From: Candidatus Nitrosopelagicus sp.
GTDB taxonomy: Archaea; Thermoproteota; Nitrososphaeria; Nitrososphaerales; Nitrosopumilaceae
Length of the DNA: 64,000 nucleotides
Direction: 5' to 3'
Assembly: GCA_028344155.1 (NCBI GenBank)
Contig: JAOMAI010000001.1
Coordinates: 1 to 64,000, forward strand
Shown in pieces: positions 53,583 through 60,014 of the stretch. How positions within the stretch are numbered: position 1 is the first letter of the stretch; each line of letters begins with the position of its first letter. The notes below the pieces were generated by a model. The model saw only the letters and a list, made by a program, of their open reading frames with translations. It did no database searches and was not told the origin of the DNA. Both the position numbers and the translations under genes were made by a program.

Positions 53583-55787
53583 TTAAATTTGTTTTTCAGA
53601 AATACCAGTACAGAATAAACTAATATGATCGGATCCTCTAGAGTGATTTTTGTAATATTTTGCCTTATCAGAACTATCTGCTTTTATTGAAATTATGTTT
53701 TCACCTGGAATTAATACCAAATTTTCTAATTCAATATTTGTAATGGAAACAGAATTAATATCATATGCGTTTAATCTTTCATCATTAAAAAAAATATCAA
53801 CATTACGATTTTGCTCATGGCTTACTAATTCTAACATAATTGAAATTTCATCTTTACTGTCATTTGGATTAATTATTTTTATTTCTGATTCAGAAAACAT
53901 TGGACGAGCATTTATCTTTGGATCAAACCAACTCCATCCCTCACCAAGAAGAATAAATGGTTCCAAGTTAGAAGATTCTGGAATTTTCCATGCACGAACT
54001 TTAGAATCATCAAAATACAATTCATCACTATTCAAAATTTTTGACATGATATTTGATTTATTGTTTATAGCGTCTTCACCAATTGATACACGTTTTGTAG
54101 AAGAATCTGTCAGAGTAATTGGAGAATCCTTATGCAAAATGGCATATTTTATGTCATAATAATTTAAAATAGGAATTCCATATTTTGATAAATCTTGTTT
54201 TACGATATCAACATCGTTTTCAAATCTTTGGAAATTTTTCAAGAAATAAGTATCTGTTTGCGCTAATTCATCTAATGTTGGTCTTGATTCATGCCCACCA
54301 ATAATTGGTTTTTCATGAAATGTTTGATAATATCCAATAATAGGAACTGAACTTTGTGAACCAGTTTGATCTGAACCTATTGGCATTTCTAAAATTACAA
54401 ATTCTGATTTATCATTTTTAATTTCATCATATATTTCTGGAATTTCTTCTGTAAAAGATGGAAACGGACTTGCTGATACGTCAAAAAGCAACACTGAAAA
54501 AATTCCAATTAATATTAATATCAAAACTTTTTTTGAGAACATTTTACTTTTCATTATGCCATTTATTGTGAATGCTGAAAGAATTGCTAGAGAAAGATGT
54601 GTCATTATAATAAATCTCCCACTTGATCTCATTTCATCCCATCCAGGGACAAAATCAAACAAAAATCGTTCTGGCATCCAAATTCCTGTGAGATTACTAA
54701 AAATTCTTAATTCTGGTCCAAGACTTAGTATGGCAAAACCAGTTCCAACAAAAATCCAAAACCAAGTAAATCTAAATCTAAATTTTAGAGCAATAATTGA
54801 AAGAAAGATTGCAGGAAAACCCAGATATGAGTAACTTTCAATTGATTCTGGCACTGTTTCTGCTTCATTATCGATCAGTGATTCATGCATCCATATCCAG
54901 AATCCATAATCCGTTTGAATTTGACTAGTATGATGTACAGTTGGAGTAACTAGAGCTCCTAAACTAGTTGAATACATCAAATGTTCCCTTATTGATACCT
55001 CTTCCCACTGTGATATTGAATCAAATCCCGGTGTCAGTACAACAAGAGATGCACTTGCACCTATGCCTAGAATTAAAAAGAAATTAAGCATGAATGTTTT
55101 ATTCGGCACATTTTTTTGTTTGAATATGTATATCGAAAAAAATACAATTGAAAATATTATTAAAATTACAAAAAAGTATAGGTGAGTTATAGCTCCTAAA
55201 AATAAAAACATACTACCTAAAACAATCAACACTTTAGATTTTTCCTCAAGAATTTTAAATAAAACTAGAATGAATAATGGCAACCATACTATTATTCCAA
55301 GACCAATATGAAATTGAGAATGAACTAAGTGATATGAACTAAATGTAAAAATCACACCAGCAATAATTGAAGCATAAAAATTTTTAGTGAAATGATTTGC
55401 TAATAAAAAAGAACCATACCCACCTGATACAAATCCTGAAATCCAAATTATATTCCATGCTAATGTACTTCCCAATGTACTTTGTAAAATTGCGCCAATT
55501 CCTGTAGTAAATAATGCTAAATTTCCTCCAATGGAAACACCATTAGGTTGAAAAATGTATTGACTATAATAGAAATCTAAATTATTTTCAAAACTAAATC
55601 CTGCCCACCACATTCTCCACATCATATGACATTTATCCCAACATCCTTGTCCCGCAGCTTCAGAAGTGAAATCTAAAATTACTGGAAAAGTTAGAATAAT
55701 TGTTAAAACCAAAAATATGCCAAGAACAATTCCATGCTTGGAAATATTTCTTGTAAAATTATAATTCTCAATTATCGTATTATTCAT
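53583..55787 (-). CDS. Large multi-TM membrane protein (GT-C/YfhO-like)
   Basis: 734 aa, about 11 TM helices plus a C-terminal extracytoplasmic beta-rich domain. Confidence 0.65.
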   Translation of the reverse strand: MNNTIIENYNFTRNISKHGIVLGIFLVLTIILTFPVILDFTSEAAGQGCWDKCHMMWRMWWAGFSFENNLDFYYSQYIFQPNGVSIGGNLALFTTGIGAILQSTLGSTLAWNIIWISGFVSGGYGSFLLANHFTKNFYASIIAGVIFTFSSYHLVHSQFHIGLGIIVWLPLFILVLFKILEEKSKVLIVLGSMFLFLGAITHLYFFVILIIFSIVFFSIYIFKQKNVPNKTFMLNFFLILGIGASASLVVLTPGFDSISQWEEVSIREHLMYSTSLGALVTPTVHHTSQIQTDYGFWIWMHESLIDNEAETVPESIESYSYLGFPAIFLSIIALKFRFRFTWFWIFVGTGFAILSLGPELRIFSNLTGIWMPERFLFDFVPGWDEMRSSGRFIIMTHLSLAILSAFTINGIMKSKMFSKKVLILILIGIFSVLLFDVSASPFPSFTEEIPEIYDEIKNDKSEFVILEMPIGSDQTGSQSSVPIIGYYQTFHEKPIIGGHESRPTLDELAQTDTYFLKNFQRFENDVDIVKQDLSKYGIPILNYYDIKYAILHKDSPITLTDSSTKRVSIGEDAINNKSNIMSKILNSDELYFDDSKVRAWKIPESSNLEPFILLGEGWSWFDPKINARPMFSESEIKIINPNDSKDEISIMLELVSHEQNRNVDIFFNDERLNAYDINSVSITNIELENLVLIPGENIISIKADSSDKAKYYKNHSRGSDHISLFCTGISEKQI

Positions 55788-55799
55788 ATCACTTTTTCA

Positions 55800-57167
55800 T
55801 CAACCAATTGAATTAATCCTTTGGCTTTTCCAAATATACCAACACGCAATACTGCGGTTTGGTTTCCATCTAGCCGAATATTTTTCCATAGTTTTTGGAT
55901 TAGGCAGTTCTTTTAATGAAAACAAATTTCTAATCCCTTTTTGTATTCCTAAATCTCCTACTGGGAAAACATCTTTTCTTTCCAAACAAAACATTAGATA
56001 GATTTGTGCCGTCCAATTTCCAATTCCTTTGATTTTTGTTAACTCTTCAATTACTTGTTCATCTTTTAATTTTGAAATTTTCCCAAAATTAATTTCTTTT
56101 TGAATAATTCGTTTTGATAATCCTTTAATGTAATTGATTTTTGTGCCTGAAATTCCTGTATCTTTTAATTTTTTTTCACTTGTATTGATAACTTGTTCTG
56201 GAGTCGGAAATTTTTTGTAAAGTTTTAGAAATCTCTTTGTAATTGCTGTGGCAGATGCTTCTGATAATTGTTGATAGATTATTGCCTCCACGAGTGTTTG
56301 GTATGGATTTTTTGTAATTCTCATTGTACATGGACCAATTTTTCTTATCAATGGTTCAAGTTTTTTATCTAAATACAAAGATGAAACCTCTTTTTCATAT
56401 TTACCTGCAGTTTGTAATTTTAATCCAATAGTAATATTTTCAAAGTTTTTTGCTGTTGGATTTTTTTTATATTCTCTAGTTAGATTAATTATCTTTAATT
56501 TTATTGGTAATTTTATTTTTTTTTGAATAATTTTTGCCAATCCCGTTCCAATCAAAATTGCTTGTGTTGCACCTGTCACGTTTGATGGTTTTCTGTTAGT
56601 ACTTGAACTCTCAAAATCAATAATTGTATTTTTATTTTTTCCAACAATCACATGTTTGTCAATTGTACTTAGTTCTCCATGATCTAATCCTATACTATCT
56701 AAAAGATAGCATTCTCTCAAAACATTATTCAGTACTAAACGAATTTCTTCTGACTTTGTTTCAGGTTTTTTCGCCCAATCAATAATTTTCTCACCTTCAA
56801 TGTACTCCATTATCAAAAAATTTTTTGAATTTTTGATAAACTTTGGACCTACATCAATCTTATTTACGATTTTGAGTAATTTAGCTTCATTTGTCATATT
56901 TTTCCGTGGAGAATCGATTCTTCGAATTTTTAACGCTACAACATTCTTGTCTTTTTTTGCAAGCACAACCATCCCCACATATCCTTTTCCAAGAATTTGG
57001 CATTTTTCAATCTGTAACGGTCCAGTGAATGAAACATGAGTAATTCCTAATTTTTTTAATTCTGCTAATCGTTTTTTAATCTCAGCTTGTTTTCCCTCTG
57101 GGAATGCTAGAATTTTTTTGTAAGGTTCTTTATTGAAAACGCTAATTGGTTGAAAATGCTGTGTCAT
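55800..57167 (-). CDS. Fusion protein: N-terminal atypical protein-kinase-like domain and C-terminal HhH-GPD (AlkA-like) DNA glycosylase
   Basis: Kinase-like: LGKGYVGMVVLA, VVALKIRR, LIMEYIEGE, LDHGELSTIDKHVIV, NTIIDFES; glycosylase: YQTLVEAIIYQQLS, LTKIKGIGNWTAQIYLMFCL, DVFPVGDLGIQKGIR. Confidence 0.85.
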   Translation of the reverse strand: MTQHFQPISVFNKEPYKKILAFPEGKQAEIKKRLAELKKLGITHVSFTGPLQIEKCQILGKGYVGMVVLAKKDKNVVALKIRRIDSPRKNMTNEAKLLKIVNKIDVGPKFIKNSKNFLIMEYIEGEKIIDWAKKPETKSEEIRLVLNNVLRECYLLDSIGLDHGELSTIDKHVIVGKNKNTIIDFESSSTNRKPSNVTGATQAILIGTGLAKIIQKKIKLPIKLKIINLTREYKKNPTAKNFENITIGLKLQTAGKYEKEVSSLYLDKKLEPLIRKIGPCTMRITKNPYQTLVEAIIYQQLSEASATAITKRFLKLYKKFPTPEQVINTSEKKLKDTGISGTKINYIKGLSKRIIQKEINFGKISKLKDEQVIEELTKIKGIGNWTAQIYLMFCLERKDVFPVGDLGIQKGIRNLFSLKELPNPKTMEKYSARWKPNRSIACWYIWKSQRINSIG

Positions 57168-58482
57168 CAGTAGTTATCAGTTTTGAAATGCTCTTTTTAA
57201 CAGATTTGCTTTGTTTATCTTTTCCACTCGTTATCTTAAATCCTTTTTTGAAATCATTTCTTAATCCCTTTGGAATTCCTGATTGCCCAATATGATTTTT
57301 AATTAAATCATTAAGGTATGTTTTGGCATTTTCGTATCTTCGGGTTTGTAATGATTGCAATTTCCCTTCCTTATCTGTCCACATTAATTTTGATTTTTTA
57401 GAATTAATATTGATAAATTTAGTTGCAAACTCACCAGAAAACACATCTGGTCCTGTTCTTATTTCATTTTTTGATATGGTTAGTGATTCTAGTAAGAACA
57501 ATAAACTAGCATTGGTTTCATCATATGCTATTGCATCATTTCTAAGAACATTAAATCCTTCATTGATCATTTGGGATTCAATTGAGCTGGATGCACGCTT
57601 AATTTGCCCGTAAACAATGTCATCGCTCCTTTTTTTGTATGTAAAATTCACAATTAGTAAATTTTTTGCAATTTCAGTAGGAATCTTAATTCTTGATTTT
57701 TCTTTAAAGTATGAAATTGAATTTTTCTTTAAGAAATTTCTAGCAATTAAGATGAAATTTGTAACATTTTGGATTGATATTGCAGCACCAAGATTCCTGT
57801 TTCTGTCTATTGGATCAATTATTACTATTGTAGATTCAAATTTTCTAGGAGATTCTCCAATCATTTCATTGTTTTGTAATCTTGCAATTTTCTTTAAGAC
57901 ATTTTCAAAGCTACCCAAATAGTAAACTAAAACTTCACAAACGTATCCGCTGAATCCTTGCTTTGCAATCTCTGCACCATACATTCCATTAATTTTCAAA
58001 AAACATTTCAAAACTCTAATGTCATCTTTCATTGAACCAGTTAATTTTTCACTCATAAACTCCGTATGGAATGTTGATCTATCAGCTGCGCTTTTCCATT
58101 CTCCTTTTTTAATGTCATAACACGGTACAACATTAACTCCTACTCCATCAATATCTGCTTCAACAAATGGATGTTCTGAATATCTTACATATGGTTTAAA
58201 TTTTTTTAGCGAATCAAATCCAATTTTTTTACCAATTGTTTCAAAATTTTTTTCAGTTGTTGTTTTTTTGAATTTTACAAAAATATCAATATCAATTTTT
58301 TCTGGGGTCCATGTCTCTTTTGCATATGAACCCCCAAAATGCACTGACACAATTGCTTTTTGTTTCTCAGTTTCTTTGTTAACAAGACTAAAAACCTGAT
58401 TTGCAATTTTATCCACTTTTTTTCTTAGTATATTATTTGGAATTGCTATTTGTTTTGATTTTTTTATGATATCACTTTTCAT
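57142..58482 (-). CDS. cca: Archaeal (class I) CCA-adding tRNA nucleotidyltransferase
   Basis: VSVHFGGSYAKETWTPEKIDIDIFVKF; GFSGYVCEVLVYYLGSFENVLK; IVIIDPIDRNRNLGAAIS. Confidence 0.95.
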   Translation of the reverse strand: MKSDIIKKSKQIAIPNNILRKKVDKIANQVFSLVNKETEKQKAIVSVHFGGSYAKETWTPEKIDIDIFVKFKKTTTEKNFETIGKKIGFDSLKKFKPYVRYSEHPFVEADIDGVGVNVVPCYDIKKGEWKSAADRSTFHTEFMSEKLTGSMKDDIRVLKCFLKINGMYGAEIAKQGFSGYVCEVLVYYLGSFENVLKKIARLQNNEMIGESPRKFESTIVIIDPIDRNRNLGAAISIQNVTNFILIARNFLKKNSISYFKEKSRIKIPTEIAKNLLIVNFTYKKRSDDIVYGQIKRASSSIESQMINEGFNVLRNDAIAYDETNASLLFLLESLTISKNEIRTGPDVFSGEFATKFININSKKSKLMWTDKEGKLQSLQTRRYENAKTYLNDLIKNHIGQSGIPKGLRNDFKKGFKITSGKDKQSKSVKKSISKLITTDDTAFSTN

Positions 58483-59018
58483 TTTGCATTAACCTCCAGT
58501 AAATCTGAATATTCTGGTCCCTTTGGACTTAAAACACTTCTTTTTACTTTGATTTTTGACACAGTTTGTGTACCAAATTGAATAGTCTGGTATTCTTTCA
58601 TTATGACTGAAATATCATTAATTTTCTTTTTTACTCTAAAAACTGTCAAGTGAGGTTTGAATTTTTTATCATTTTCAAAACCTAGTGTTGTCAATTTCAT
58701 TCCCACTTCATTTGCCATAGCAGTTAATTTTTCTGTACCATTGTTATCAATTCCAATCCAGATTACGCGTGGATTTTTCAAGTTTGGAAATCCACCTACA
58801 CCTTTTAATGATAAATCAAAAGAAGAAAATGTCATTTTCTTAACAATATCTTTTACTTGTTCACATTTTGTTTCATCAATTTCTCCTAAAAATTTCAAAG
58901 TAAAGTGAATTTGATCAATTTTTGTAGGTTTTGCATTAATCTGAACATTTTTTTGAAATGTTTGAATATTCTTCAAAATTTTCTCATTAGAAATTTCAAC
59001 TGCTACAAAAACTCTCAT
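58479..59018 (-). CDS. thpR: RNA 2',3'-cyclic phosphodiesterase (2H superfamily, ThpR/LigT)
   Basis: RVFVAVEI; two HxT motifs: IHFTLKFLGEI and PHLTVFRVK. Confidence 0.93.
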   Translation of the reverse strand: MRVFVAVEISNEKILKNIQTFQKNVQINAKPTKIDQIHFTLKFLGEIDETKCEQVKDIVKKMTFSSFDLSLKGVGGFPNLKNPRVIWIGIDNNGTEKLTAMANEVGMKLTTLGFENDKKFKPHLTVFRVKKKINDISVIMKEYQTIQFGTQTVSKIKVKRSVLSPKGPEYSDLLEVNAK

Positions 59019-59082
59019 GAAAAATAAAATATTAGTAATTATTTATCGCTACCTTCATAGACTAGTCATTCAAAAATAATCT

Positions 59083-59631
59083 GTGTCAAAACTAGTTGTT
59101 TGTTTAACTGGAATGCCTGGTGCAGGAAAATCAACTATTGTTTCAAAATTAAAAGAAGGTGGCTATGAAACCTTTAGCCTTGGTGATGGTGTTAGAGCTG
59201 AAGCCAATAGATTGAATTTAGAACCTACAGGCGAGAATCTTGGTAAACTTATGTTAGATTTACGTGAAAAAAATGGACCAGGTGCAATTGCAAAATTACT
59301 TAAAAATTCTATTGAAAACTCAACTCATGAAATTATAATTATTGATGGTATACGTTCAATACATGAAATTAATGTTCTAAAAGAAACTGGAAATGTAAAA
59401 CTTTTAGCTGTAAACGCATCTGCTGATACACGATTTAATTTTCTCCGTGAACGTAAAAGATCAGATGATCCGTTAACAAGAGAAAAATTTGAAGAACGTG
59501 ATAATCGTGAAATTGGTGTTGGCTTAGAAGAAATTATTGTACTTGCTGATGAATCAATTGAAAATAACAATATAACAATTGAGGAAATGGTAAAATCTGC
59601 AATCAAAATATTTCAAAAGTGGATTGAATAA
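59083..59631 (+). CDS. Archaeal nucleotide kinase-like P-loop protein (UPF0200 / dephospho-CoA kinase-like)
   Basis: CLTGMPGAGKSTIVSKL, IIDGIRSIHEINVLK, FLRERKRSDDP. Confidence 0.85.
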   Translation: MSKLVVCLTGMPGAGKSTIVSKLKEGGYETFSLGDGVRAEANRLNLEPTGENLGKLMLDLREKNGPGAIAKLLKNSIENSTHEIIIIDGIRSIHEINVLKETGNVKLLAVNASADTRFNFLRERKRSDDPLTREKFEERDNREIGVGLEEIIVLADESIENNNITIEEMVKSAIKIFQKWIE

Positions 59632-60014
59632 TGAATCAAAAAACAACAATTCAAATTTTCTGTCAAATCAATCCTTCTGAAGATCCTGAAAAAGTAAAAT
59701 CTGCAATAAATAACATTTTTCCTGAAATAGAATTAGAAATATCTGATGCAGAAATTAGTGGAAAAACAAATAATTTTTCAATTCTGTCACAAATTTCAAA
59801 ATCAATTCATGAAAAAAACACCAAAAACACCTATCAACGTATTCTCAAAAAAAATAGTGACGGTGACTCCACTTGGTTTTATCTCAATAAACAGGCAGCA
59901 TTTGTAAATACTGTAGCCTTATGCAGTGAAGCAAACGAATCATCTTTAGGCCCAATTAAGATAATTTTACGCTCAAACGACATAGAACAAGTAATTGATT
60001 CTATCACAAATTAG
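59631..60014 (+). CDS. UPF0201 family protein
   Basis: Overlaps the previous gene (ATGA-like); QIFCQINPSEDPEKVKSAINNIFP; LGPIKIILRSNDIEQVIDSI. Confidence 0.75.
   Translation: MNQKTTIQIFCQINPSEDPEKVKSAINNIFPEIELEISDAEISGKTNNFSILSQISKSIHEKNTKNTYQRILKKNSDGDSTWFYLNKQAAFVNTVALCSEANESSLGPIKIILRSNDIEQVIDSITN

Follow-up and report, generated by a model that had tools for sequence, protein, structure and literature searches.

The analysed window is a stretch of 64,000 nucleotides from Candidatus Nitrosopelagicus sp., one of the tiny ammonia-oxidising archaea of the ocean. Three open reading frames lie consecutively, head to tail, on its minus strand. The first (58479..59018) encodes ThpR, a 179-aa RNA 2',3'-cyclic phosphodiesterase of the LigT family, which matches TIGR02258 with 147.4 bits against a curated cut-off of 65.7 and also matches PF02834. 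The second (57142..58482) encodes an archaeal CCA-adding enzyme of 446 aa, which scores 347.7 bits with TIGR03671, above the curated cut-off of 281.3, and matches PF09249 and PF21133; a GGAGGT motif is found 5' of its start codon. The third (55800..57167) is a 455-aa fusion gene in one open frame, of the same length in other Nitrosopelagicus, in which an ArkI-like RNA-kinase domain (residues 15-252, 56412..57125) is followed by a Mag1/AlkA2-type HhH-GPD glycosylase domain (residues 253-451, 55815..56411). By their coordinates, the ThpR and CCA frames share 4 nt (ATGA, 58479..58482) and the CCA and ArkI frames share 26 nt (57142..57167), exactly the strict overlaps described in an earlier sequence-only reading of this DNA. 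That reading had also labelled the third gene a kinase-glycosylase; the fusion was confirmed, and "kinase" is corrected here to RNA kinase, a homologue of ArkI.

Judged by its sequence, fold and residues, the kinase half is an ArkI (COG2112) homologue and no generic protein kinase. The nearest solved structure, by sequence as well as by fold, is TkArkI (7vnx, phmmer 4.2e-17). AlphaFold was used to model the whole fusion from an input of 68 sequences (pLDDT 94.4, pTM 0.86), and residues 15-252 of the model match TkArkI with a VIA Z of 21.3 over 207 residues, while Geoglobus Ark1 (8yv4) matches the kinase half with a Z of 18.0. Fourteen residues were mutated in TkArkI, and the catalytic residues proved essential for activity, according to PMC9095486. 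Eleven of the 14 are identical in the window protein: K61, G62, K80, E94, H163 and K171 correspond to TkArkI K32, G33, K51, E65, H130 and K137, and D184, N196, T198, Y233 and K234 to D149, N160, T162, Y200 and K201. The remaining three differ, with E165 for Q132, M120 for R95 and K235 for R202, where the R202/K235 correspondence was judged by eye and all others come from the residue table. In the 18 fused rows compared, which contain four same-record pairs, the 11 activity residues are invariant except at T162 (T or S). A counterpoint to an ArkI-like activity is that Q132E and R95M depart from TkArkI, in which Q132A is severe and R95A mild (PMC9095486), though in other families of the class the Q132 column, part of the HGQ triplet, holds E as well as Q. 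In the host family it is E throughout, and E at Q132 and M at R95 are common to all rows.

Could the kinase half instead be a regulatory protein kinase which controls the glycosylase? Weak Pfam and NCBIfam matches to RIO1, Bud32 and protein kinases point that way, but ArkI matches better, the HGE/HGQ, DFE, N-x-T and YK features are present, and ArkI is retained where the glycosylase is lost. The ArkI match and the residues disfavour the protein-kinase reading, which is highly improbable.

As reported in PMC9095486, the product of ArkI is 2'-phosphouridine at tRNA position 47 (Up47), and ArkI from Nitrososphaera viennensis, a mesophilic member of the class, forms Up47 when expressed in E. coli. 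The kinase half of the fusion is predicted to form Up47 as well. Among the 30 of 41 tRNAs inspected in the complete Nitrosopelagicus genome G046, 23 have a five-base V-loop and 19 of these carry U47, a necessary and not a diagnostic feature. KptA, the known eraser of Up47, was matched in 6 of the 250 genomes of the class that were searched and in none of the host family, which suggests that Up47 there would not be reversible by the KptA route. The KptA homologues are confined to a few scattered genomes from two other families, and most ArkI-bearing members of the class are without KptA. The window protein shares with TkArkI (PMC9095486) the fold, catalytic residues, YK motif and gene position beside cca, and differs from it by the C-terminal glycosylase, the E for Q132, and a planktonic marine host in whose family KptA was not found. 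In one single-contig genome (L046, G083), arkI is split into two overlapping frames with alkA2 intact, either as a pseudogene or through a sequencing error.

The glycosylase half matches the HhH-GPD family PF00730 with 70.5 bits (cut-off 26.2), and residues 253-451 of the model match Mag1/Mag2 of S. pombe with a Z of 25.9. It has the same compact HhH-GPD domain of ~200 residues, and the same catalytic Asp, as Mag1/Mag2 and the AlkA2-type glycosylases (3s6i, 4b21, 2h56, 2yg8), and it differs from them in being carried on an RNA-kinase homologue within a tRNA operon. The catalytic residue, Asp405, sits in the motif PVGDLG; this Asp is present in 74 of 74 aligned homologues, and the HhH motif is strongly conserved. 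The relatives with solved structures are DNA glycosylases. The glycosylase half would be expected to excise alkylated bases, with DNA as its most likely substrate. At one locus (L041, G154) PVDDLG replaces PVGDLG in the glycosylase, and the gap between thpR and cca is ~2.5 kb.

The top sequence match of this half is Mag2, and the window has QQLS where Mag1 has QQLH, which might mean that the domain is a Mag2-like module that binds nucleic acid and excises nothing, either aiding the kinase in binding tRNA or tethering it to DNA. However, QQLS is also found in AlkA-type proteins of Bacillus and Deinococcus, and Mag2 itself has QKLS. The invariance of Asp405 and the conservation of the HhH motif also count against a non-excising module, as does the lack of any such module in most ArkI proteins, and this alternative is quite unlikely.

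Judged from gene order, thpR-cca-arkI is an ancient tRNA operon, which was partly known already. The comparison of gene order covered 121 loci, all from the class and consisting of the window plus 120 that were fetched, with genes in the fetched loci called from open frames and from profiles built in this analysis; the samples of class and phylum are partial, and the family names of the sampled genomes were taken from named relatives. In 119 of the 121 loci CCA lies directly upstream of a same-strand ArkI, and the two overlap in 116 of these 119 pairs. ThpR precedes CCA in 106 of the 121 loci, overlapping it in 91. For 5 of the 13 loci scored without a ThpR call, CCA is at or near a contig end, and one locus (L045) was scored as lacking ThpR since its CCA frame extended upstream, with ThpR in fact present. 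Among 20 loci outside the class, eight carry ThpR, CCA and ArkI on a single strand in this order, and another two carry CCA and ArkI. The order thpR-cca-arkI is kept through the class, and it is partly kept through the phylum, in families outside the class. An order unique to the strain is ruled out for these three genes; the fusion itself is a genus-level feature. The sequence-only reading had proposed a functional module of the three genes, and they do form a conserved, overlapping operon for tRNA ends and tRNA modification, in which the fused kinase is itself homologous to a tRNA kinase. The same tRNA genes are grouped in Sulfurisphaera tokodaii, with a cca-arkI operon (PMC9095486), and in Sulfolobus acidocaldarius, in which an operon of the CCA enzyme and a 2'-5' RNA ligase shows strong heat-shock induction (PMC10653856); the accessible text of these two papers makes no mention of an added alkA2 or of a fusion.

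Upstream of thpR, a conserved block of 32 nt, GACTAGTCTATGAAGGTAGCGATAAATAATTA (59036..59067, minus strand), is the presumed operon promoter. It is identical in 12 of 12 Nitrosopelagicus loci (by eye), and it contains an A/T box 18-29 nt ahead of the start codon of ThpR, the spacing of a leaderless transcript in archaea, so the block would fit a single operon promoter. A scan with a bacterial, not an archaeal, promoter type, together with a terminator scan, found no excess over shuffles. The block, with a palindrome, GACTAGTC, falls in the short interval (59019-59082) that separates thpR from a divergent gene, and is perhaps an operator or a shared promoter. The divergent genes (59083-60014, plus strand) are an adenylate-kinase-like P-loop protein and an RNA-binding protein of the PF01877/PRK00447 type, and in most of the Nitrosopelagicus and Nitrosopumilus loci compared the adenylate-kinase-like gene likewise stands upstream of thpR.

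The uninterrupted 455-aa fusion is found, at 79-97% identity, in six other Nitrosopelagicus genomes and in eleven named contigs of the genus (L186-L195 and L197), four of which are the same records as genomes already counted, and in L196, where it is partly covered. A chance open frame or an assembly artefact is ruled out by the presence of this same fusion in many genomes. Among the sampled genomes the fusion is limited to Nitrosopelagicus and one other genome, G133. A tree of CCA plus ArkI, made by a quick method and supported by SH-aLRT values alone, requires four changes of the label "fused", three of which are forced by well-supported branches. The simplest reading is that the genes would have fused twice, on the Nitrosopelagicus stem and separately in G133, a member of one other genus, and that the glycosylase half was then probably lost in L198 and in the pair L199 and L200, with ArkI intact. 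In these three the ArkI frame ends at 251-260 aa; in L198 and L199 the shortened ArkI is followed directly by the gene that comes next in the genus, and L200 ends there. G089, the sister of G133, has two overlapping genes. An AlkA2 tree places G133 apart from the Nitrosopelagicus fusions, although the latter sit on a long branch of unsure position. Searching the literature on an ArkI-AlkA2 fusion or an RNA-acting AlkA found nothing pertinent, and the fusion appears to be new.

The later loss of the glycosylase half inside the clade is what one would expect if the fusion were a neutral accident and one of its halves were in decay. Against this, both halves have pairwise dN/dS values of about 0.03-0.15, which indicates purifying selection on both, and the active sites are intact, making a neutral accident very unlikely.

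With a threshold of 1e-20, alkA2 was matched in 90 of the 250 genomes of the class, and where it is present it is mostly located 3' of arkI. In 54 of the 79 genomes compared it is fused to arkI, adjacent to it or less than 3 kb away, a tally in which G144 is scored as fused and is really adjacent: its arkI and alkA2 share one frame with a lone TAG stop between them. In the other 25 of 79 it lies farther off or on another contig, and the "other contig" cases may still be linked where the assembly is fragmented. In two genera outside Nitrosopelagicus, a CDF metal transporter and a PAC2 protein, with no tRNA link, stand between arkI and alkA2. The neighbours of unlinked alkA2 genes, named by eye, show no consistent pattern. 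In two loci (L248 and L249, from G066 and G131), the unlinked alkA2 adjoins a gene resembling threonyl-tRNA synthetase; the remaining neighbours are mixed and include Rad50, ribosomal protein L2 and a membrane protease.

These placements bear on whether the glycosylase is directed at RNA, excising or sensing alkylated bases in tRNA while the kinase half marks or protects U47, so that the protein is a tRNA quality-control enzyme. All the other genes of the operon act on tRNA or on RNA ends, alkA2 has remained beside arkI across deep divergences and has fused with it on two occasions, and the two unlinked copies next to a threonyl-tRNA synthetase-like gene would suit such a role. The mixed neighbours of the other unlinked copies would not, and neither would the DNA-glycosylase identity of the relatives with solved structures or the dispensability of the glycosylase half; moreover, overlapping neighbours fuse readily, so that the fusion is weak evidence of joint action. 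An RNA-directed glycosylase is unlikely. The sequence-only reading had suggested a quality-control module with the HhH-GPD domain acting on RNA or alkylated tRNA. The operon and the kinase agree with the tRNA side of this idea; an HhH-GPD domain working on RNA is not supported as such, as its relatives with solved structures are DNA glycosylases and alkA2 is not found in most operon-bearing genomes, lies elsewhere in many genomes and was lost within the fused clade where ArkI was kept. The full form of the idea, a fusion whose glycosylase treats damaged tRNA and whose kinase marks or protects that same tRNA at U47, is likewise doubtful, and it is the adjacency over deep divergence that keeps it among the readings considered.

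The favoured reading, to which we give a probability of roughly two in three, is that the fusion is a bifunctional protein, a predicted tRNA-U47 kinase and a glycosylase for alkylated bases in DNA, joined since their genes overlapped. ThpR, the CCA enzyme and the fusion would make up one tRNA-maturation operon, presumably co-transcribed, in which ThpR would act on RNA ends with a 2',3'-cyclic phosphate and the CCA enzyme would build and repair the tRNA 3' end. The ArkI-type half would place a phosphate on the 2'-OH of the U47 ribose in class I tRNAs whose variable loop has five bases, and the tRNA would thereby be protected and stiffened. The Mag1/AlkA2-type half would remove alkylated bases, most likely from DNA, by Asp-assisted base flipping. 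It seems that alkA2 long stood just 3' of arkI in the Nitrosopelagicus family, overlapping it in many genera, and that a small indel or the loss of a stop joined the two in the common ancestor of the main clade of Nitrosopelagicus, with a separate joining in one other genus. The two halves would then be independent active sites in one polypeptide at a fixed ratio, probably without cross-talk. Overlapping genes on one strand can be joined by one small mutation, so the fusion alone is weak evidence of coupling; the adjacency that persists across deep divergence argues better for a link of some kind. A counterpoint to the favoured reading is that, without a functional link, it is odd for a DNA glycosylase to have stayed in a tRNA operon for such a time.

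The locus suggests that an ArkI-type enzyme phosphorylates tRNA in streamlined marine plankton, where protection from high heat is not the obvious reason, and in a family in which the eraser KptA was not found. The gene pair, its two fusions and the loss of one half also make up a natural experiment on a link between tRNA care and the repair of alkylation. An activity of the glycosylase half on RNA would make it an RNA-repair enzyme of a new kind and, to our knowledge, the first HhH-GPD glycosylase working on tRNA.

Downstream of the fusion, the gene of a 734-aa YfhO-like membrane protein (53583-55787, minus strand) lies between the fusion and a 77-aa CICKK gene. No match to the YfhO-like gene was found in the 26 related loci compared, and in most of these the 77-aa gene follows less than ~130 nt after the fusion.
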